Assembly: GCF_900187365.1 (NCBI RefSeq)
Contig: NZ_FYDG01000001.1
Coordinates: 248,001-312,000, forward strand
Direction: 5' to 3'
From: Rhodoblastus acidophilus
GTDB taxonomy: Bacteria; Pseudomonadota; Alphaproteobacteria; Rhizobiales; Beijerinckiaceae
DNA: 64,000 nt
The notes beneath the pieces are model-generated. The model searched no databases, had not been told where the DNA came from, and saw only the letters and a program-made list of their open reading frames with translations. The stretch's first letter is position 1. Each line of letters starts with the position of its first letter. The position numbers and the translations under genes were made by a program. Positions 1,070-56,158 of this stretch are shown here, in pieces.

Positions 1070-2140
1070 ATGCCGCCGCAAATCGCCCCCCTTACGTCAC
1101 TTCGGTTTTTTGCGGCGATACTGGTCGTTGTCCATCATGCCATGGACTACTCTTCAGCGCCGATCCATCTGGAGATGATACGAAAGGGCGGCGTGGCCGT
1201 CGACTTCTTTTTTATTCTCTCCGGCTATATTCTGACTCATGTTTACGCGCCGCGCGCTTATCAGCGCGAGGGATTTGTCCGCAATTTCATTGTTGCGCGT
1301 TTTGCAAAAATATACCCCATTCATATTTTCACGCTATTATTGCTCTTGTTTTTTGTCATTGCCTCGAAGACTGTCGGAATCAGTGTGAATGAGGACCGCT
1401 TCACAGCCTCGGCTTTCTTCGCGCATATCGCGCTGCTGACGGCCTGGGGCGTGACGGACCAGATGACCTGGAATTTCCCGGCCTGGTCGATCAGTGCGGA
1501 ATTCACAGCTTACCTTCTATTTCCGGTCCTTGTTCTGATCCCATTTAAAAGATCGGCAAGAAAGGCGCTTTGTCTTCTCGCCCTATGCTGGCTTGTGTTT
1601 GGGTCCTGGTTCCACCTGGCGACTCGCACCATTGATTTTGGCGTTGCGCGCATTATTCCGGAATTTCTGGGCGGCATGCTGCTGTATAGCGCCATGTCGA
1701 CGACCAAATCGGCGCCTTATGCCGAAGCGCAATTTCTTGTGGCCTCCGTCCTGATTATCCTCGGCCTTATATTTGGCGTTTCCGAAGTATGGTTTCCGCT
1801 GGCGTTCGGTTGGATCATCGCCGTCGCCCCCAGCTTGCAAGGTCCGCTTGGGCGCATCCTGTCGCATCGGATTCTGGTGAATTTGGGAGAGGAATCCTAT
1901 TCCCTCTACATGATCCATATTTTCATCTTTACGATCATCTACGGCGCATTGCGGACGAAACACTTGTCTGTGCTCGCCTCGGCTCCGCATGTTTGCGATC
2001 TGTTGGCGATCGCCGCGGCCATATTCGCCGCCCGCCTGTCGCATCGCATGATTGAAATCCCTGCGCAGAACTGGATCCGAGACCGGCTGTCGACAAAGAC
2101 CTCGGCCTCAAGGCTCGCTGCGCAAAAGGCGCTCGGCTGA
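1070..2140 (+). CDS. Acyltransferase 3 family membrane protein (OafA/YrhL-like O-acyltransferase)
   Basis: The protein has 356 residues and about ten hydrophobic segments. The N-terminus LTSLRFFAAILVVVHHAMDY carries the Arg and His signature of the acyltransferase-3 domain, followed by the DFFFILSGY motif. The family transfers acetyl or other acyl groups to extracytoplasmic polysaccharide, peptidoglycan or lipid acceptors. No C-terminal SGNH domain is fused. Instead, a separate secreted esterase is encoded divergently next door. An AAGGGG ribosome site lies five bases before the ATG. The acceptor is unknown. The polysaccharide-type membrane protein cut by the left edge suggests EPS or O-antigen. 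Confidence 0.88.
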   Translation: MPPQIAPLTSLRFFAAILVVVHHAMDYSSAPIHLEMIRKGGVAVDFFFILSGYILTHVYAPRAYQREGFVRNFIVARFAKIYPIHIFTLLLLLFFVIASKTVGISVNEDRFTASAFFAHIALLTAWGVTDQMTWNFPAWSISAEFTAYLLFPVLVLIPFKRSARKALCLLALCWLVFGSWFHLATRTIDFGVARIIPEFLGGMLLYSAMSTTKSAPYAEAQFLVASVLIILGLIFGVSEVWFPLAFGWIIAVAPSLQGPLGRILSHRILVNLGEESYSLYMIHIFIFTIIYGALRTKHLSVLASAPHVCDLLAIAAAIFAARLSHRMIEIPAQNWIRDRLSTKTSASRLAAQKALG

Positions 2141-2161
2141 AACCCTCTGGATCCGCCGCGT

Positions 2162-2707
2162 TCAGGCTGACTGCGGCGGACTGTCGCCGCGCGGCGGCAG
2201 AGAGAACAGCATCCGCCGCAACTCGTTGGCGCCCACCGGCTTGTGGAGCATCACCTAACCGCTCGCATGAATGTCGACGATGCGATCGGGCGACGTGTCG
2301 CCGGCGATCACGATGGTCGGGACCTTTCGGCCGGAGCGGGCGTGGATTTCGTTGACGGTCTGCGTGCCGCTCAAACGGGCGCCCAAACGATGATCCGCGA
2401 CCATGGCGTCAAACCGCCATCCCTCGCGTGCGCCGAGGTCAAGGGCTTCCTCGCAAAAACCGGCCGCGACGGTTTCGTAGCCCCATCCCTCCAGCAGCAA
2501 TTGAAGGCCGGACCGCAAGGATTGCGCGTCATCCAGCGGAACGGAAATAGAAAAGCGACTGCCCCGCCCATCGCGCGACCGGAACGTGATTTCGGCCGCC
2601 AGCAGACGAGCGATGCGGTCGACGATGGACAAGCCAAGGCCCTTGGCGCGAGCATGAAAGGCGATGTGCGCGGATCGGCCCGGAATTGCACAATTGCGCT
2701 TGAATTT
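2162..2707 (-). pseudogene. Relic of a hybrid sensor histidine kinase (HATPase end plus receiver), broken by TAG
   Basis: Read on the minus strand, the fragment starts without a plausible start codon. It goes through a HATPase G2 box (KGLGLSIVDRIARLL) and the end of the ATPase domain (SRFSISVPL), then jumps straight into a receiver domain that has lost its beta-1 strand (DDAQSLRSGLQLLLEGWG). The receiver continues through MVADHRL and IVIAGDTSPDRI to an in-frame TAG at 2255-2257. After it, MLHKPVGANELRRML continues in the same frame to the TGA at 2162. In relatives the position of the TAG is usually tyrosine (SGY.LLHKPV), so a single TAT/TAC to TAG change is likely. The missing DHp region and internal deletion make this a non-functional remnant. 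Confidence 0.8.
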
Positions 2708-10716: not shown

Positions 10717-10810
10717 GTCCAACATCTCCTGGCGCCCGACGCGGCGTCGGAGCGGGCGCGCTGGCCCTCGTCGATGCGGGACCTTAGGCCGGAACAACCA
10801 GGCTTGCAAC

Positions 10811-10834
10811 AAAAACGAAACGGTTTAGTTTAAA
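10811..10834. promoter_or_regulatory. Candidate TetR operator / promoter
   Basis: An AT-rich island upstream of tetR contains AAACGGTTT (10818-10826), a short palindrome of the AAAC-n-GTTT kind often bound by pump-associated TetR repressors, followed by AGTTTAAA. It lies 100 bases before the tetR start. The assignment is by position and symmetry only. Confidence 0.35.
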
Positions 10835-10906
10835 GATCGTCACGCCGGGCCGGGCGGCGCGTCGGAGCGCCCCGGGGATCCGGCCCCAGCCACGGAGACA
10901 TCGGCC

Positions 10907-11143
10907 ATGACGCCGTCTCGAAGGATCGCGATCGCTCATCTGCTGGCGGCGCTTGGGCTTGTTGGGGCGCCGACGGGCGAGGCCGCGGCGCTCGAAACCG
11001 GCGCGGGCGACGGCGACTGGCGCCGCCATGAAATTGTCCGGACCTATCGCGACGAGGACGGCTGCCGGGTGCGCGTCACCAGCTATCACCGGCTCAACGG
11101 CGAGATCGACACACGAGAGAGCCGCGACTGCGGCAAGGACTGA
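10907..11143 (+). CDS. Small secreted protein of unknown function
   Basis: The 78-residue protein has a signal peptide (MTPSRRIAIAHLLAALGLVG, cleavage near EAAA). The mature part of about 50 residues is highly charged (WRRHEIVRTYRDEDGCRVR) and carries two cysteines that could form a disulfide. I do not recognise a family. GGAG lies about ten bases before the ATG. It stands alone between tetR and the TonB-nucleotidase operon. Confidence 0.65.
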   Translation: MTPSRRIAIAHLLAALGLVGAPTGEAAALETGAGDGDWRRHEIVRTYRDEDGCRVRVTSYHRLNGEIDTRESRDCGKD

Positions 11144-11450
11144 GCGCCGCGCTGGCGCGACGGATGGGTTATGATGCGGCCGCGGCTGACTTTTTCGGCG
11201 CAGGCCAGGCCGAGGAGCCGGCTGCGCATCGCCTTTGCCATCGGCTGTGGCGCCAAAGACACGTCGCCGCGCCGGCTCCAAAAAAACCTTAGAAATAAAT
11301 AATTTACCAACGTCTCTCTCAGGGCGGGGCGGCGGCGTCCATGCGCCCGATCACGCGCGTAATCCAATTGTCGCGCTTTGGTCATCAGCGCGTCAGGCAA
11401 AGCTTCTTTTGGTGTCGGCCACGCGAGACGCCAAAGGACGATGCCTTGCC
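11144..11450. other. Interval upstream of the exbD-tonB-receptor-exbB-nucleotidase operon
   Basis: This 307-base stretch holds no credible gene. An AT-rich core at about 11280-11310 is the likeliest promoter region for the downstream operon. A pair of GTCA repeats 11 bases apart (11381 and 11392) faintly resembles a Pho box but matches poorly. Confidence 0.4.
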
Positions 11451-11861
11451 ATGCGAAGCTGGCCCCGGAAGACCGAAAAACGCGCGCGCATCGAAATCAT
11501 CCCGATGATCGATGTGATGATGTTCCTGCTGGTGTTCTTCGTGCTGATCAGCATGAACGTGCTGCCCGCGCTTGGCCTGCGCATCGCGCCGCCGACCTCG
11601 GCGCGGCCCGACCAGATGGTCGAGCGCACCCGCATGCAGGTCGGCATCGATCCGAACGGCGGCGTGTTCCTTGACGGCGTCGCCATCGAACTCGCCGCGC
11701 TCACCGAACGCCTGAAGGCCGCCAACAGCCCGGACAAGCCGCTCGCGGTGATTATCGCCGGCGATTCCGGCGCCAATCTCCAGCATCTCGTCAGCGTGCT
11801 CGACGCGCTGAAGGCGGCGGGCGTGGCCAGCGCCCAGATCGTGGCGAAGCAGAAGCCATGA
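11451..11861 (+). CDS. exbD: ExbD/TolR-type biopolymer transport protein
   Basis: The 136-residue protein has one transmembrane helix near the N-terminus, preceded by a basic segment. RIEIIPMIDVMMFLLVFFVL contains the essential membrane Asp (in PMID) of ExbD proteins. The periplasmic part ends in the usual beta-alpha fold. With ExbB it forms the proton-driven motor for TonB. The preferred ATG follows AAAGGACG at a longish spacing. It is the first gene of a five-gene operon, and its stop overlaps the tonB start as ATGA. Confidence 0.88.
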   Translation: MRSWPRKTEKRARIEIIPMIDVMMFLLVFFVLISMNVLPALGLRIAPPTSARPDQMVERTRMQVGIDPNGGVFLDGVAIELAALTERLKAANSPDKPLAVIIAGDSGANLQHLVSVLDALKAAGVASAQIVAKQKP

Positions 11862-12592
11862 GCGCGACGCCGGGATCGTGCTGGCGCAGGCCCGAGGTCG
11901 TCAGCCACCTGTCCAGCCTCGCGCTGACGGCGGCGATGGCGGCGGGATTTTTCTTCGCCGCGCCGGAGCGTCTGAACAGCGAGCCGGAGCCGTCGCCCGC
12001 CTCCGACCTCCAGCTGTCGCTGGTCGAGCCGCCGCCGGAGGAGCCCAAGGCCGAACCCACGCCGGAGCGGCCGCCCCAGCCGCAGCCCGAGCCACCGCCC
12101 AAACCCGAGGCGAAGGCGCCGTTGACGACGCCCGAAGGCGCGCTGCCGCCGCCGAAAAAGCTCAAGCCGCCGAAACGAAAAGTCGTCGAGGCGCCGGACG
12201 ACGAGGACGATGAACCCAAGCCGGTCGCCAAGCCGAAGCCCCGGGCGAAGCCCGCCGAGGCGACGCCGCGCCGCGCGGCGGCCGCGCCGCGTTCGGAGCG
12301 CGGCGGTCCCGCCGCCGCCCCGCGCGCCTCGGCCGGTTCGGCCGCCGCCTTCCGCGCCTGCCTGCAGGCGCACGCCCGCTATCCCACCTCCAAGGAGGCG
12401 CGGCAGCAGAATCCGCATGGCGCGGTCGGCGTCAGCGTCTCGGTTTCCGGCGGCGCGATCGCCGGGGTTTCCGTCACCTCCAGTTCGGGATCGGGGCTGC
12501 TCGACCAGGCCGCGCGCGCCAGCGTGCTGTCGTCCGGCTGCGGCTCCGCCGCCGGCGGCGCCTCCCAGCTCACCGGCCGGATCGTCTTCTGA
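11858..12592 (+). CDS. tonB: TonB-like energy transducer
   Basis: The 244-residue protein has an N-terminal membrane anchor (SSLALTAAMAAGFFFAAP). A Pro-Glu and then Pro-Lys-rich spacer follows (residues about 50-130), with a C-terminal domain of about 90 residues (ACLQAHARYPTSKEARQQNP to GRIVF). The YP motif and the three-stranded ending are standard for TonB. It transmits ExbBD energy to the receptor encoded next. Start overlaps the exbD stop by four bases, implying translational coupling. Confidence 0.85.
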   Translation: MSATPGSCWRRPEVVSHLSSLALTAAMAAGFFFAAPERLNSEPEPSPASDLQLSLVEPPPEEPKAEPTPERPPQPQPEPPPKPEAKAPLTTPEGALPPPKKLKPPKRKVVEAPDDEDDEPKPVAKPKPRAKPAEATPRRAAAAPRSERGGPAAAPRASAGSAAAFRACLQAHARYPTSKEARQQNPHGAVGVSVSVSGGAIAGVSVTSSSGSGLLDQAARASVLSSGCGSAAGGASQLTGRIVF

Positions 12593-46302: not shown

Positions 46303-46986
46303 ATGACTGACGTTGGAGAAACGGTCGAAGCCGCGCCTTTCGACTACGCCTGCGCCCCGCCCTTGCTGATCGCGCGTTTTCCGGCCCCGCGCCGCACGCT
46401 GGGCTGGTCGATGCTGCATCCCGGCTTCGCCACCGTCCGCGACGTGGTTTGGCTGGAGGTGCGCAACAGCGATCTCGGCCTCGATGTCGACGCCCATGCG
46501 TTTCTGCGGGCGCGTCTGGCGCAAGCCGGTCAAGGCGATGCGCTCGCCTTCATGACCTCCCGCGACATTCGGCGGCACCATTTTCGCCAAAGCCGCGTCG
46601 AAGGGATCGAGGCGGCGTGCCTGACCACCGTCGGCTTGTCCAATGGCGAACGCGTCGGCGCGCGAAAACAGCCGCCCGCGCTGGCAGGAACGATCAACAC
46701 GCTGGTCCATGTGTCGCAACGCCTGAGCGACGGCGCGCTGGTTGAAGCCTTGTCCATCGCCGTGCAAGCGCGAACGGCGGCGATCCTCGACACAAGGCCT
46801 GCAAGCGCGGAAAAGCCCGTCACCGGCACAGGCACCGATTGCCTTGTCATCGCCGCGCCCTGCAACGGAACGCCACTGTGCTGCGCGGGGCTGCATACGG
46901 CTGTGGGCGAAGCGATCGGCGGCGCGGTCTATGAGGCCACCAGCGCAGGCGCGCGGGAATGGAACGCCGAATTCGGGATCGGCTGA
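46303..46986 (+). CDS. cbiZ: Adenosylcobinamide amidohydrolase (CbiZ family)
   Basis: The 227-residue protein has WSMLHPGFATVRDVVWLEV, the conserved CbiZ segment. AFMTSRDIRRHHF, CLTTVGLSNGERVG, GTINTLVHV and TGTGTDCLVIAAP are also typical, as is the C-terminal LHTAVGEAIGGAVYEA. CbiZ cuts the aminopropanol side chain of imported adenosylpseudocobalamin or adenosylcobinamide so the corrinoid can be rebuilt with the cell's own lower ligand. It lies just upstream of a B12 riboswitch and a corrinoid ABC importer, which fits a salvage and remodelling role. Confidence 0.92.
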   Translation: MTDVGETVEAAPFDYACAPPLLIARFPAPRRTLGWSMLHPGFATVRDVVWLEVRNSDLGLDVDAHAFLRARLAQAGQGDALAFMTSRDIRRHHFRQSRVEGIEAACLTTVGLSNGERVGARKQPPALAGTINTLVHVSQRLSDGALVEALSIAVQARTAAILDTRPASAEKPVTGTGTDCLVIAAPCNGTPLCCAGLHTAVGEAIGGAVYEATSAGAREWNAEFGIG

Positions 46987-47050
46987 GCGCGCCGCGCTCG
47001 CAAATCGGCGCTTGCTTCGCCGGAAGGTCACGACTAGTAAGCGCATGTCA

Positions 47051-47236
47051 TCGGTGCCCCGGGTCAAGCCGGGGTGAAACGGGAATGCGGTCAGGACAAA
47101 TCTCCGAACAGGAGAAAAGTCCAAAACCGCAGCTGCCCCCGCAACTGTAGGCGACTTTCCTTCCGCCCTTACGCCACTGGAAGCCTTGGCTTCCGGGAAG
47201 GCGGCGGAAGACGGGTCGCGAGCCAGGAGACCGGCC
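47051..47236 (+). ncRNA. Cobalamin (AdoCbl) riboswitch upstream of btuCDF
   Basis: All landmark elements are in order: GGTGCCCC, GGGTGAAACGGGAA, the B12 box GCAGCTGCCCCCGCAACTG (47131-47149), GCCACTGG (47172-47179), the GGGAAGGCGGC stretch and the closing GCGAGCCAGGAGACCGGCC. It precedes a short ORF and the corrinoid ABC transporter genes. It should shut them off when adenosylcobalamin is abundant. Confidence 0.97.
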
Positions 47237-47283
47237 GATGCACAGCATAACCTAACGCCGTCGGTGGGACGGCAGGAGGATCC

Positions 47284-47373
47284 ATGGCTACGCTCTCCAA
47301 GCGTCGCGCCGCCGTGCTGGCGGGCGGCTCGCTGCATTCTGTTTTGGCGCGAACGACGACCGTCGCGCCATGA
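47284..47373 (+). CDS. 29-residue leader ORF coupled to btuC
   Basis: A short frame, MATLSKRRAAVLAGGSLHS to TTTVAP, has a near-perfect AGGAGG-type site (GGCAGGAGGATCC) directly before its ATG. Its TGA overlaps the btuC start as ATGA. btuC has no good ribosome site of its own, so translation of this peptide probably feeds ribosomes to btuC. In that case the riboswitch could act by masking the leader's ribosome site. The basic start and hydrophobic middle look like a truncated signal peptide, so it may be the remnant of a lost first gene. Confidence 0.6.
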   Translation: MATLSKRRAAVLAGGSLHSVLARTTTVAP

Positions 47374-48416
47374 GCGCGACGACAGGCGCGCCCCCCGCGA
47401 CCGACCGCGCGGGACTGGGGCGGGCGCTGATCTCACCTGCGCTGGCGGGTCTGGTCGCCGTGCTGACGCTGGCTTCGCTGAGCGTCGGCGCCGCAAAACT
47501 CCCCGTGAGCGCGGTAGTGGACGCCCTGTTCGGCGCGGGGAGCGAGGCGCATCGCGTGATCGTTCAGGACATCCGCCTGCCGCGCACGCTGCTCGCCGCG
47601 ACCATCGGGGCGATGCACGGCCTGTCGGGCGCCGCCCTGCAAGGCCTGTTGCGCAATCCGCTGGCGGCGCCCTCGCTGTTCGGCGCGCCGCAGGCCGCCG
47701 CCTTCGGCGCGGTGCTGGCTATAGCGACGGGACTCGGCGACGCCTTGTCCTTCGCCTTGCCGCTGTCGGCGATCCTGATGGCGTTTCTGTCCGCCTGCAT
47801 CCTGGTCGCGATCGTCGGGCGCGAGTCGAACCTGCTGCTGCTGATTCTGGCGGGGCTGGCGCTGTCCAGCCTCGCCGGCGCCGCCACCGCGCTCGCGCTC
47901 AATCTGGCGTCCAACCCGTTCGCGGCGCTCGAAATTTCATTCTGGCTGCTCGGCTCGCTCGATGACCGCAGCTTTCGCCATGTGCTGCTGGCCTGGCCGT
48001 TCATGGCCTGCGGCGCCTGGCTGCTGTGGGCGCGGCGCGACGCCTTTCGCGTGCTGAGCCTGGGCGAGGAGGCGGCGCAAAGCCTCGGCGTCAACGTGAC
48101 GGCGCTGCGGCTCCAGGTCATTCTCGGCGTCGCGCTCGGCGTCGGCGCCTCGGTCGCGGTCTCCGGCACGATCGGCTTCATCGGCCTGGTGGCGCCGCAT
48201 CTGATGCGGCCGCTGGTCGGGCACGATCCGGGCCGGCTGCTGGCGCCCAGCGCGCTGGCCGGCGCGGCGCTGCTGCTGGCGGCCGACATCGCCGTGCGCC
48301 TCATTCCCTCCAGCTCCTCGATCAAGGTCGGCGTGATGACGGCGCTGATCGGCGTGCCGTTCTTTCTTTACCTGGTGTTCCGCGAACGCCTCAGACTGGG
48401 AGGCGCGACGGCATGA
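47370..48416 (+). CDS. btuC: Corrinoid ABC transporter permease (FecCD/BtuC family)
   Basis: The 348-residue protein has about ten membrane helices. It carries the FecCD hallmarks RLPRTLLAATIGAMHGLSGAALQGLLRNPLAAPSLFG, GSLDDRSF, VSGTIGFIGLVAPHLMRPLVGHD and FFLYLVFRERLRLG. The family imports ferric siderophores or cobalamin. The upstream B12 riboswitch and the neighbouring cob genes favour corrinoids. It begins within the stop of the leader ORF and ends overlapping the ATPase start by four bases. Confidence 0.92.
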   Translation: MSATTGAPPATDRAGLGRALISPALAGLVAVLTLASLSVGAAKLPVSAVVDALFGAGSEAHRVIVQDIRLPRTLLAATIGAMHGLSGAALQGLLRNPLAAPSLFGAPQAAAFGAVLAIATGLGDALSFALPLSAILMAFLSACILVAIVGRESNLLLLILAGLALSSLAGAATALALNLASNPFAALEISFWLLGSLDDRSFRHVLLAWPFMACGAWLLWARRDAFRVLSLGEEAAQSLGVNVTALRLQVILGVALGVGASVAVSGTIGFIGLVAPHLMRPLVGHDPGRLLAPSALAGAALLLAADIAVRLIPSSSSIKVGVMTALIGVPFFLYLVFRERLRLGGATA

Positions 48417-49192
48417 CGAGCGGGAATTTCGAGGTTTGCAATCTCCATGTCCGCCTCGGCGGCCGAAACGTGTTGCGCGAGATTTCCTTCAGCGCGCAAG
48501 CCGGCGCGCTGATCGCGCTGGTCGGTCCCAGCGGCGCCGGCAAAACCACTTTGTTGCGGGCGCTGGCGGGCCTGATTCCCAGCGAAGGCGGCATCGTCAT
48601 GGCCGGCGAGAATCTCCGCGCGCTGTCGGTCGCGCAGCGCGCCCAAAAACTCGCCTATGTGCCGCAGGACGATGCGGTGCATTGGCCGCTGCCGGTCCGC
48701 GACGTCGTGGCGCTGGGACGCTATCCGCATGGCGCGACGCGCCCCGGCCGACTGCGTCCGCGCGATGTCGAGGCCATTGCGCGGGCGCTCGACGCGGTCG
48801 ATCTCGGCGACATGGCGGAGCGGGCGGTCACGCAGCTTTCGGGCGGCGAGCGTCGCCGGGTGGCGGTGGCGCGCGCGCTGGCGACGGAAGCGCCGGTTTT
48901 GTTCGCCGACGAGCCGACGGCTTCGGTCGATCCGCACTACCAGCTTTCGATCATGACCCTGTTGCGGCGGCAGGCCCGGCAGGGCGCGCTGGTCTTCGTG
49001 GTGACGCACGATCTCGGCGCCGCCGCGCGCTTCGCCGACCGCGTGCTGATGCTGCGCGCCGGCCGTCTGGAAGAAGCGGGGGCGCCGCGCGATGTGCTCG
49101 CGCCCGCCCAGCTCGCGGAGGTGTTCGCCATCGACGCGTTTCGCTGCGATCACGCCAGCGAGCCGGTCATCGTGCCCTGGGCCGCGCGATGA
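48413..49192 (+). CDS. btuD: Corrinoid ABC transporter ATP-binding protein (BtuD-like)
   Basis: The 259-residue protein has a Walker A (GPSGAGKTTLLRALAG) and Q-loop (YVPQDDAVHWPL). The signature is QLSGGERRRVAVARAL, followed by Walker B (VLFADEPTASVD) and the switch His (VVTHDLGAAARF). It drives BtuC-mediated import through the inner membrane. Start and stop both overlap neighbours (ATGA with btuC, four bases with btuF). Confidence 0.93.
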   Translation: MTSGNFEVCNLHVRLGGRNVLREISFSAQAGALIALVGPSGAGKTTLLRALAGLIPSEGGIVMAGENLRALSVAQRAQKLAYVPQDDAVHWPLPVRDVVALGRYPHGATRPGRLRPRDVEAIARALDAVDLGDMAERAVTQLSGGERRRVAVARALATEAPVLFADEPTASVDPHYQLSIMTLLRRQARQGALVFVVTHDLGAAARFADRVLMLRAGRLEEAGAPRDVLAPAQLAEVFAIDAFRCDHASEPVIVPWAAR

Positions 49193-50022
49193 ATGTTTTC
49201 GGGCGGCTCGCCGCGGCGGCGGCGCTGGCGTGTTTTGCGCCCTGCGCCTGGAGCGCGCCGGCGCGCATCGCCTCGATCAACATGTGTACGGATCAACTCC
49301 TGCTGGCGCTGGCTGATCCCGAGCAGATCGCGGGTTTGGGGCCTTATGCCCGCGATCCGCAGATGTCGTGGCTGGCCGAGCAAGCGAAAAACTATCCGCG
49401 CCTGAGCGGCGAGGCCGAAGACCTGATCGCCTTGAATCCGGATCTGGCGCTGGCCGGCAAATATGGCAAGAAGGCCACGCGCGATCTGCTGCAGGACCAT
49501 GGCGTGAAGATCGCGGAATTCGACGTTCCCCGCAGCATCGAAGATGTGAAGACTCAAGTCCGCCGCGTCGGCGAGATCGTCGGGCATCCCGAGCGCGCCC
49601 GCGCGTTGAACGACAGCATCGACGCGGCGGCGGCGCGGGCGCGCGCCTCGGCGGCCGATGGGCGCATCCGCGTGCTCGCCGTGTCGCGCAGGGGCTGGGT
49701 CGCTGGGAGCAACGGTCTGTTGTCATCGCTGCTGGCGACCGTCGGCCTCGCCAATTCGGCATCGGACCTCGGATTGAGAAGCGGCGGCTTCGTCACGCTG
49801 GAAACCGTGATCGCGACCGAACCCGATTTGATCCTGGTGGCGGAATCGTCGCCACGCGCCGAGGACCAGGGCAAGGCGATGCTGCTGCATCCCGCGCTCG
49901 ACCGCCGCTATCCGCCGGCGCGCCGCATTGTCATTCCCGAAGCCCTGACCATGTGCGGCGGGCCGATGCTGCCCGCCGCGCTGGATCGCCTGTCGGACGC
50001 CATCGGGCGGGCGTCGCGCTGA
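49189..50022 (+). CDS. btuF: Periplasmic corrinoid-binding protein (BtuF-like)
   Basis: The 277-residue protein has a signal (RLAAAAALACFAPCAWSAP). RIASINMCTDQLLLALADPEQIAGL and the mid-protein helix with DLLQDHGVKI fit the type III (BtuF/FhuD-like) periplasmic-binding fold. VIATEPDLILVAES and the final MCGGPMLPAALDRL also match. It captures corrinoids and delivers them to BtuCD. No outer membrane BtuB gene is linked. Confidence 0.9.
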   Translation: MNVFGRLAAAAALACFAPCAWSAPARIASINMCTDQLLLALADPEQIAGLGPYARDPQMSWLAEQAKNYPRLSGEAEDLIALNPDLALAGKYGKKATRDLLQDHGVKIAEFDVPRSIEDVKTQVRRVGEIVGHPERARALNDSIDAAAARARASAADGRIRVLAVSRRGWVAGSNGLLSSLLATVGLANSASDLGLRSGGFVTLETVIATEPDLILVAESSPRAEDQGKAMLLHPALDRRYPPARRIVIPEALTMCGGPMLPAALDRLSDAIGRASR

Positions 50023-54248: not shown

Positions 54249-54782
54249 GTGATCATCGTCAGCGCCCTTCGCCACATCGAGCGCCTCGTGGCCGAGCGGA
54301 CTTTTACGCGCTCGCTGTCGCTGCTCGCGCCTTGGCAAACCGTCATTTTCGATGACGGAATCCTGCCGCGCGACCGGCTGATTCTGGCGTTCAACGACAT
54401 CACCGCGCCGCAGCCCGGCTGCGTCGTCCCCGACGAAGCCCTTGTCGGCGCCATCGTCGATTTCGGCCGCGCCTGCCGCGCCGACGACCATGTGCTCGCG
54501 CATTGCTGGATGGGCGTCAGCCGTTCGCCGGCCGCCGCCTATATCATCGCCTGCGCGCGGGCGCCGGGCGAGGAGAAGGCCATCGCCGACGCCTTGCGCC
54601 GCCGCGCCCCGACGGCGACGCCCAACCGCCTGCTGGTGTCGCTGGCCGACGAGCTTTTGGCGCGCGGCGGAAAGATGGTCGATGCGATCGACGCCATCGG
54701 ACGCGGCTGCGAATTCGACGGCGACGCGCCGCCGTTCGCCCTGCCGCTCGACTGGAGCGCGGACGCCGACGAGATGATCTGA
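54249..54782 (+). CDS. Protein-tyrosine-phosphatase-like protein
   Basis: The 177-residue protein contains VLAHCWMGVSRSPAAAYIIA, a full Cys-x5-Arg phosphatase loop. DDGILPRDRLILAFNDI lies upstream where the general-acid Asp is expected. Small soluble proteins of this type are common in Hyphomicrobiales, with unknown targets. The GTG (MIIVSALRHIERL) is chosen because similarity begins there, although the frame is open further upstream. It is divergent from cobQ (100 bases) and convergent with the riboswitch-controlled gene. Confidence 0.82.
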   Translation: MIIVSALRHIERLVAERTFTRSLSLLAPWQTVIFDDGILPRDRLILAFNDITAPQPGCVVPDEALVGAIVDFGRACRADDHVLAHCWMGVSRSPAAAYIIACARAPGEEKAIADALRRRAPTATPNRLLVSLADELLARGGKMVDAIDAIGRGCEFDGDAPPFALPLDWSADADEMI

Positions 54783-54799: not shown

Positions 54800-55510
54800 T
54801 CATGGCGCGCCCACGGCCCGGCGACGGCAGAAGTCGAGCACGTGGCGAATCTGGCCCCAGGTCGCAGGACAGAACACGGTGCGGCCTTCCGAAATCGCCG
54901 CGCGCGCCCAGATCGCCCTGCGGCCCAAGGCTTTGGCGCTCTCGTAATCGACGCTGCCGGGCGGCGGCGCGAGATCGAGGATCACGGCGTGTTCGGGCAG
55001 CCGCGCCAGAACGTCGGCGCCGATATATTGCATCAGGTCGGTGGAAAGAACGAGGTCGAACGGCGCCGCCTGCTCCGCGAGGTCGGCCAAGCCATGCGGC
55101 GTGGCGCCCATGAGGATCAGGGCGCACGCCTCGTCGCGGTCGACGGCGATGGCGTGGACGTTCACATCCTCGGACAGCAGACAGCGCAACACGCCCTCGG
55201 TGAATTTCGCACGGCCGGCGACCAGCACGTTGGGCCTTGACTTGGACGGAAGCGTCGCGGCGCGGGAGGCCGGCGCGAGGCCGGCGGTCTTGACCGGTTC
55301 GGCGCCGCTGCGATTTTGCGCGCGAACGCCCGGCGAACGGGGATGGGCCTTCCGCTCCTGCGCGTTGAGGAAAATCCAGCGCAACACGATCTCCAGATCG
55401 CGCCAGAAACGGCTCGCAAGACGGAACGATGCGCGCGAAGCGTCTTGCTTTTCTCGCGTCATTGCGAGGCGCCGTTCGTCGTCAGGCGACATCGCCAGAA
55501 CCAGAATCAT
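54800..55510 (-). CDS. Unrecognised Rossmann-like protein resembling dipicolinate synthase subunit A C-terminus, B12 riboswitch-controlled
   Basis: This is a 236-residue protein. Residues about 95-230 form a Rossmann-like domain (PNVLVAGRAKFTEGVLRCLL). A stretch like DpaA/SpoVFA follows: DLVLSTDLMQYIGADVLARL, then AVILDLAPPPGSVDYESAKALG and RAIWARAAISEG, where DpaA has the DLAS-PGG-DF-A pattern. The glycine-rich nucleotide loop is atypical (VAGRAKF). The first 90 residues are Arg-rich and match nothing I know. GGAGG lies six bases before the ATG. A full cobalamin riboswitch lies upstream with no other sizeable gene between, so the protein may serve corrinoid metabolism. Its reaction is unknown. 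Confidence 0.65.
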   Translation of the reverse strand: MILVLAMSPDDERRLAMTREKQDASRASFRLASRFWRDLEIVLRWIFLNAQERKAHPRSPGVRAQNRSGAEPVKTAGLAPASRAATLPSKSRPNVLVAGRAKFTEGVLRCLLSEDVNVHAIAVDRDEACALILMGATPHGLADLAEQAAPFDLVLSTDLMQYIGADVLARLPEHAVILDLAPPPGSVDYESAKALGRRAIWARAAISEGRTVFCPATWGQIRHVLDFCRRRAVGAP

Positions 55511-55867
55511 GACTGGCCTCCGTTGCAACCGCTTTTGCGATCGGCGGAGGGATCATTCGGGTGGGTGGGAATCCGCATGTGAAAACTCTGGATGAAGCCG
55601 CGCCGCCCCAGCCGGGCGGCGTCAGGTCAAAGGCTTGAAAATCTCGCGCTCATGGGCGGACAGACTGATCGCGGCGCGGGGGCGCAAACGGCCGAAAGCC
55701 GCGTGTTTCCACGCGAACGACAGCGTCAGACGATTGGGAATGTCGCGAGGGGGCGATGCGCGCTAACTGAGGGCCGAATCCCTGCCAAGCCGCGTTGCGA
55801 TCACCAATACATTCATCATCACAAACCTCCTGCCTCGCCTCACCCGGCGGGTCTGAGTCCAATCGAC
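55511..55867. other. Leader region between the second B12 riboswitch and its gene
   Basis: A 357-base stretch without a normal gene. It holds an 18-codon ORF (55763-55819) and a strong GC hairpin (CGCCGCCC / GGGCGGCG, 55601-55621) with no T-run, which might still pause transcription. The remainder is not recognised. Confidence 0.45.
55763..55819 (-). CDS. 18-residue leader ORF after the second B12 riboswitch
   Basis: The frame MMNVLVIATRLGRDSALS ends in TAG. AGGAGG lies six bases before the first ATG, far better than expected by chance, and it begins about 50 bases after the riboswitch. It may be the initiation region the riboswitch controls, or the stub of a gene whose remainder was lost by a stop mutation. 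The peptide itself has no recognised function. Confidence 0.45.
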   Translation of the reverse strand: MMNVLVIATRLGRDSALS

Positions 55868-56040
55868 GATGGCAGGTTTCCTGGCTCGCGGATCGCCGCC
55901 TGAATCCGCCTTCCCAACCCAAGGGGTCAGTGGCTTTTCGAAACAGGCTAGCCGCTTACAGTTGCGGGGGCAGCCACGGCGTTGAACCGTGTTCCCTATT
56001 ATCTTCGGCGTCGAAACGCCGAAGCACCATCCCGGCGATT
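55868..56040 (-). ncRNA. Cobalamin (AdoCbl) riboswitch upstream of the DpaA-like gene
   Basis: On the minus strand the order is GGTGC followed by a CTTCGGCG/CGCCGAAG hairpin, AATAGGGAA, the B12 box GCTGCCCCCGCAACTG (plus-strand 55959-55974), AGCCACTGACC, GGGAAGGCGG and GCGAGCCAGGAAACCTGCC. It is a complete element facing left. Confidence 0.95.
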
Positions 56041-56158
56041 GTGGCGCCAGCGGCGCATCTTGGCAAGCGGCTGTTTGCCGCCCGCGAAAATTGTCGGGGA
56101 CGAGCGAGGCGACGCGGGGGCTTGTCCCATTCCGCGTCGCCCTTGAGAGCGGCTCCTC

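Follow-up and report, generated by a model that had tools for sequence, protein, structure and literature searches.

The window, the whole 64,000-nucleotide stretch of Rhodoblastus acidophilus DNA analyzed here, carries on its minus strand a cobalamin riboswitch, a short leader, and a gene for a protein resembling the C-terminal domain of dipicolinate synthase A (DpaA). The name dpaL is used here for this gene (54800-55510) and its B12-linked kin. The features of the locus and its surroundings are listed by window position; alignment A4, cited there, comprises 11 short members of the family and 7 two-domain rows.

56038-56066, minus strand: sigma-70-like promoter match TTGCCA-17-CACAAT just upstream of the riboswitch (consensus match only, 9 of 12 positions)
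55854-56046, minus strand: complete cobalamin riboswitch aptamer (RF00174, model positions 1-189 of 189)
55826-55831, minus strand: Shine-Dalgarno sequence AGGAGG directly 3' of the riboswitch, with identical letters in the Rhodoblastus sphagnicola leaders L041 and L042
55763-55819, minus strand: leader ORF of 18 codons, MMNVLVIATRLGRDSALS, behind the AGGAGG ribosome site
55507-55578, minus strand: probable bchE remnant of 23 codons, matching the L042 bchE start at the DNA level; its stop overlaps the dpaL start (ATGA)
54800-55510, minus strand: dpaL, ORF with an ATG start, encoding a DpaA-C-domain-like protein of 236 residues
55370-55486, minus strand: long N-terminal helix, residues 9-47 (AlphaFold model); E40, inside it, is conserved without exception among the 11 short members
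54860-55246, minus strand: Rossmann domain, residues 89-217, by fold match to DpaA structures (pLDDT mostly above 90)
55199-55216, minus strand: degenerate dinucleotide loop GRAKFT, residues 99-104 (alignment)
54941-54976, minus strand: conserved block DLAPPPGSVDYE, residues 179-190; D179, A181, P184, and G185 are invariant in the 18 rows of A4
54249-54782, plus strand: opposing ORF, dual-specificity-phosphatase-like (DSPc E 0.0045, below the Pfam cut-off)
54160 down to 50373, minus strand: cobQ-cobF-cobB (cobQ and cobF score above their NCBIfam cut-offs; cobB assigned from its Pfam domains and by reading)
47035-49995, plus strand: second cobalamin riboswitch (47035-47253) and btuC-btuD-btuF (riboswitch and gene-model searches)

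The complete minus-strand cobalamin riboswitch of the original prediction is borne out by a search with the RF00174 model, in which the aptamer scores 133.7 bits (E 1.9e-33) against a gathering score of 31.5, over the whole model. The promoter-like site was the one found in 2.2 kb scanned, against 0.1 expected (mean of shuffles). Between riboswitch and dpaL lie, in order, the AGGAGG, the 18-codon leader ORF, and the 23-codon ORF. Leader ORFs of 18-19 codons occupy the same place in L041, L042, and L080 (three of nine other leaders compared), though the peptide is not conserved. This layout suggests control through leader translation: the AGGAGG next to the riboswitch is the ribosome site of the leader ORF, which is therefore the probable point of control. 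The window riboswitch is 78% identical to the R. sphagnicola switch of bchE-dpaL (L042) and 76% to that of a lone dpaL (L041), while the remaining 22 of the 24 riboswitches compared are at most 62% identical to it.

A TTG start for dpaL at 55528 is less likely than the ATG, since the R. sphagnicola orthologue also begins MILV. Judged by a dN/dS of 0.33 against its closest relative (230 codons), dpaL looks like a conserved, real gene; values of 0.31-0.36 were obtained for six of seven dpaL pairs, and 0.69 for the L079/L080 pair. In the AlphaFold model, residues 1-88 form the long helix and a low-confidence linker. Among NCBIfam families only DpaA matched, far below cut-off: TIGR02853 at E 3e-13 (residues 100-211 of the 242-residue reading on model positions 153-264) with 49.7 of the 319.65 bits of its curated cut-off, and NF006162 with 49 of 261 bits. 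Foldseek ranked dipicolinate synthase A first for the predicted model (E 1e-10), and VIA-align gave Z scores of 17.2 to 3d4o_D and 16.4 to 2rir_B, other proteins reaching no more than 13.2 among the matches listed; the part of DpaA matched is 150-272 only, the NADP-binding domain. Both DpaA structures are also recovered at the sequence level with a profile of 11 members (E 5e-12 and 9.5e-12); its matches to repeat proteins (alphaRep, HEAT) were taken as noise. Pfam holds no family for the window or L076 protein, and a Glyco_transf_4 match of the L080 protein (E 0.0046, below cut-off) was taken as chance. The DpaA-like C-terminal half had been proposed on the understanding that a structure search finding no Rossmann or DpaA similarity would speak against it; the similarity was found and the claim stands, and both the alteration of the glycine loop (GRAKFT) and the DLAPPPGSVDYESAKALG block agree with the description. 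By eye, a GHGC motif occurs in 8 of the 11 aligned short members, 7 of them as GHGC.GP; the L042 protein has GHGR, and the motif is absent from the window and L041 proteins.

The original prediction also held that only one sizeable gene lies downstream of the riboswitch. dpaL is indeed the first, but cobQ-cobF-cobB follow on the same strand beyond the opposing ORF, and transcription may read through from dpaL into this B12-synthesis operon. A similar phosphatase-like ORF precedes cobQ in L042 (5842-6372, minus strand; E 0.00036, below the Pfam cut-off). No dpaB-like gene was recognized by eye among the ORFs of 48-64 kb of the window, and Rhodoblastus is not known to form spores. A gene for CbiZ, adenosylcobinamide amidohydrolase (46303-46983, plus strand; Pfam E 1.4e-48), adjoins the second riboswitch and btuCDF, together a corrinoid salvage set. 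Other cobalamin riboswitches stand before an OprB-type porin gene in the window's genome (L098, 3296-5134, minus strand) and before a radical-SAM protein gene in two Rhodoblastus genomes (L101, 6464-8221, minus strand; L106, 7641-9140, plus strand). L042 carries two divergent cobalamin riboswitches (1253-1452, minus strand, and 2075-2269, plus strand), one preceding an ORF that reads by eye as nrdD and the other preceding bchE.

Relatives of the window gene were found at no fewer than 15 loci in at least 13 genomes of a single order, Hyphomicrobiales, in Rhodoblastus, Rhodopseudomonas, and the genera g341 and g392, which may be Rhodoplanes and Blastochloris, respectively. The sampled relatives, all Hyphomicrobiales, include R. 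sphagnicola, R. acidophilus, and Rhodopseudomonas pseudopalustris, the last with two copies of dpaL. The loci counted are the window, L041-L044, L075-L080, and L124-L127; weak or partial matches (L039, L040, L047-L049, L071, L073, L091, L096, and L119-L123) are excluded. dpaL is rare: it occurs in 3 of 397 genomes of the window's family and 6 of 391 of the Rhodopseudomonas family (overlapping samples), and by genus in 4 of 16 Rhodopseudomonas, 2 of 6 g341, and 4 of 5 g392 genomes, which again overlap with the family samples. A class-wide sample of 385 genomes yielded five with a match: the window's own, G779, whose matches are two two-domain homologues, and three below 23 bits.

All 15 counted loci, the window included, have a cobalamin riboswitch upstream of dpaL on the same strand, at distances of 217-5866 bp. 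By comparison, none was found near 19 other DpaA-type homologues (5 scanned on 7-18 kb and 14 on about 3.4 kb), one of which, L067, has an open frame of only 168 residues; within 1.5 kb, the reach of the short control loci, the whole switch lies at 6 of the 15 B12-linked genes. The chance of a switch near any one gene is roughly 0.5% (8 switches in 4.7 Mb, 6 kb reach), and the 15 loci are not independent, because switch and gene have partly moved together. A link between dpaL and B12 regulation is strongly supported by these data, and the outcome that had been named as refuting it, homologues never associated with B12 elements, is the opposite of what the neighborhoods contain.

What lies between riboswitch and dpaL varies. 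No full gene intervenes in the window, L041, L076, L077, L078, or L080; nrdA-nrdB do in L044 and L075, and btuD-DUF7676-btuF-btuC in L043. L042 has the order riboswitch-bchE-dpaL-cobS, and all four g392 loci (L124-L127) have riboswitch-btuC-btuD-btuF-bchE-dpaL-cobF. In L124, L126, and L127 an opposing ORF of 177 residues, for which Pfam gave no family in L124, separates bchE from dpaL, so that dpaL may there lie outside the riboswitch transcript; the junction is clean in L125 (179 bp gap) and L042 (overlap). The genes next to dpaL are for users of B12, for its import or synthesis, and for an isoenzyme independent of B12 (bchE, btuCDF, cobF, cobS, nrdAB).

The NADP-binding loop was compared across 34 homologues, the 15 B12-linked proteins and 19 others; L062, L063, and L068, without the motif pattern, were dropped. 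The 19 others share 15 members with the 19 scanned for riboswitches, and L115-L118 belong to the loop comparison and the tree but not to that scan. The third glycine of GxGxxG is missing from every B12-linked protein, replaced by different residues, and the first and second are both kept in 6 of the 15; the motif is complete in 18 of the 19 others. The first DpaA domain is missing from 11 of the 15 and kept in the four g392 proteins, in which the C-domain loop reads ASERIP or AGERIP. A tail stretch, GLGSRAPVTVG or similar, is present in the 7 two-domain rows of A4 and absent from the 11 short members.

Phylogenetic analysis places the 11 short members in one clade (97/91) and the four two-domain g392 proteins apart, on a long branch. 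The AU test does not reject a tree in which the 15 B12-linked proteins form a single group (p 0.144), and in a tree without two long rows the 15 come together at weak support (83/27.9). Matches on plasmids (16 records) are all annotated DpsA or DpaA and all fall below 60% identity. DpaL probably derives from a DpaA-type dehydrogenase, with a helix in place of the first domain in the short form.

BchE is the cobalamin-dependent anaerobic cyclase of bacteriochlorophyll synthesis, and AcsF is the oxygen-dependent one. The gene bchE is present in 9 of 9 genomes with dpaL and in 16 of 29 without it (Fisher 0.016, kinship ignored), as well as in all four dpaL-bearing g392 genomes, and thus in all 13 genomes with dpaL. 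Sixteen of the 25 bchE-bearing genomes of the first comparison lack dpaL, indicating that BchE can work without it. In g392 the bchE of the cluster is the only close copy, three of the four genomes having one further match at 33% identity and the fourth none, and AcsF (TIGR02029) is absent from these four. The lack of an oxygen-dependent cyclase was considered as a reason for dpaL and set aside, AcsF being present in 8 of 13 genomes with dpaL and 16 of 24 without. The bchE of L042 is 81% identical to that of g392 (548 residues) and 68% to the second R. sphagnicola copy, suggesting transfer of bchE between lineages. In a 2026 preprint on purified BchE (PMC13142503), the words accessory, operon, riboswitch, and chaperone are all absent from the main text.

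The leader of the window gene itself bears what is probably a trace of bchE. In an alignment of the leaders of the window, L041, and L042 (mean column identity 70%), the match runs on beyond the start codon of bchE; the 23-codon ORF of the window begins MRIPTHPN where L042 BchE begins MRIILIHPN, and its ATGA stop-start overlap with dpaL matches that of the intact bchE and dpaL in L042. Remnants were assessed at the DNA level against sequences resampled from base-to-base frequencies, which are not exact shuffles, and at the protein level against mononucleotide shuffles. For the window leader, 0 of 1000 resampled sequences matched the L042 bchE start as well, as compared with 30 of 1000 for the g392 bchE (L124) and 782 of 1000 for the genome's own bchE; the protein match is not significant (12 of 200 shuffles as good). 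The L041 leader keeps more of bchE (HSRGAETAGKSS for HSGGAEIAGKWS): of 200 shuffles, none did as well for the bchE start and 1 for the whole protein, and at the DNA level 0 of 1000 resampled sequences did so for each of three bchE starts. On this sequence evidence, descent of L041 from a switch-bchE-dpaL operon is firm. The window copy is close kin of L041 with the same leader, and so probably also comes from such an operon; its "lone" dpaL would then be what survives of a riboswitch-bchE-dpaL operon after an almost complete deletion of bchE. Kin of the other g392 cluster genes, btuCDF and cobF, lie with cobQ in the same stretch of the window. Such a history suggests a way for a riboswitch to persist after the loss of the gene originally under its control.

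No bchE remnant was found in the leaders of L076, L077, and L078 against the start, the end, or the whole protein (61-197 of 200 shuffles as good). For a match to the start of nrdA, 2 of 200 shuffles were as good in L078, 25 in L076, and 109 in L077; in the window leader the figure for nrdA is 15 of 200. A candidate bchE remnant in L080 was dropped, since the inner part of the start region gave 1 of 200 but the whole protein 41 of 200.

That the relatives of dpaL all lie downstream of cobalamin riboswitches, some of them beside bchE, points to a part in coping with B12 shortage. In the reading we prefer (probability roughly 0.57), dpaL encodes a B12-shortage-induced accessory pseudoenzyme of anoxygenic phototrophs that arose from a DpaA-type dehydrogenase, and the window holds the remnant of a riboswitch-bchE-dpaL operon. 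Riboswitches of the cobalamin class generally shut expression down on binding their ligand. By analogy with the class, the window switch would exert OFF-type control on dpaL, acting through the ribosome site of the leader ORF and reaching the downstream genes through polarity or coupling, and DpaL would be made in B12 shortage. At some point nearly all of bchE would have been deleted from the window operon, leaving riboswitch, leader, and dpaL, though the order of steps is conjectural. With fold and one block kept but NADP loop and partner domain lost, DpaL more likely binds than catalyzes. It may serve B12 economy, perhaps that of BchE, and its neighbors suggest that it could help to bring scarce cobalamin to its users, BchE in particular, or to keep it there. 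A sharper version, in which a dead NADP domain, produced under B12 shortage, has come to deliver or hold cobalamin as a factor dedicated to BchE and perhaps other B12 users, is put forward tentatively and is doubtful as it stands.

Several observations count against the preferred reading. A B12-repressed switch before the B12-dependent enzyme bchE encodes is paradoxical; 16 bchE-bearing genomes do without dpaL; only 5 of the 15 loci have dpaL behind bchE, 3 of them with the opposing ORF between; the window, L041, and L042 proteins lack the GHGC seen in most short members; the window remnant is weak as protein and does not match the genome's own bchE; and the L079/L080 dN/dS is high at 0.69.

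Three other explanations were weighed. dpaL might do a job unrelated to B12 and share only an inherited regulation, the window riboswitch serving cobQ-cobF-cobB or being a leftover of bchE control. The leader inherited from a bchE operon, the cob genes following on the same strand, and the ORF opposing dpaL in three g392 loci all agree with this; however, all 15 loci have retained the riboswitch linkage although the partners differ or have been lost, in L041 and L078 the ORFs that come next downstream of dpaL are not cob genes, and a dN/dS near 0.33 suits a conserved protein, so that we consider it unlikely. Less probable still is that DpaL, despite its unusual loop, remains an enzyme dependent on NAD(P), such as a reductase of corrinoids or tetrapyrroles acting in B12 shortage. 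Its Rossmann fold is predicted with high confidence, the DLA.PGSVD block belongs to the most conserved stretches, and 6 of 15 members keep the first two glycines; against this stand the universal loss of the third glycine to different residues, the absence of the first domain from 11 of 15, the ASERIP or AGERIP loop even where g392 proteins keep that domain, and the missing tail of the short members. These losses weaken the reductase proposed in the original prediction, and no positive evidence was found for its alternatives, a lower-ligand enzyme or a replacement isoenzyme.

The least probable of the three, which we regard as improbable, makes DpaL a regulator, the partner of an AppA-like photoreceptor, through which the control of photosynthesis genes would respond to B12 or tetrapyrrole status. 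It draws on L079, where dpaL, itself followed by cobF, comes behind one riboswitch after a gene (10721-11971, minus strand) for a protein with a BLUF domain (E 2e-8, above cut-off) and B12-binding and AppA_SCHIC-like domains (E 5e-5 and 7e-5, both below cut-off), and on the presence of bchE in all 13 genomes with dpaL. Yet this arrangement occurs in 1 of 15 loci, and Pfam finds no DNA-binding part in the three members scanned.

Should the sharper version of the preferred reading hold, bacteriochlorophyll synthesis could go on when B12 is short. In the four dpaL-bearing g392 genomes, with no AcsF and with their one close bchE in a riboswitch cluster together with B12 import and dpaL, B12 status would then govern pigment synthesis itself. 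Most genes controlled by cobalamin riboswitches can be assigned to the synthesis, import, or replacement of B12; a conserved riboswitch-linked family with no such assignment points directly to a step missing from the picture of B12 use. It also raises a testable paradox, namely why a B12-dependent pigment enzyme should stand behind a B12-sensing switch. No paper pairing dipicolinate synthase with cobalamin was found in the open-licence literature.

Among the closest known systems is the cobalamin-riboswitch regulon: other switches of the window's genome precede btuCDF, a TonB receptor, a nitroreductase-family gene (presumably bluB-like), cbiM, and cobW, and dpaL matches none of these families. 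BchE is the neighbor of dpaL in L042 and L124-L127, and probably a scrap in the window, but it belongs to another protein family (radical SAM). The two-domain DpaA homologues of related bacteria are the closest other relatives of DpaL in sequence; unlike DpaL, they keep the whole glycine motif (18 of 19) and lack a cobalamin riboswitch (0 of 19). DpaA itself (TIGR02853; 3d4o, 2rir) has two domains and a GxGxxG NADP loop, whereas the window DpaL is without the first domain and has GRAKFT in place of the loop. Common to both are the C-terminal Rossmann domain, whose fold the predicted DpaL model reproduces at Z 17.2 and 16.4, and the PG.VD-type block.
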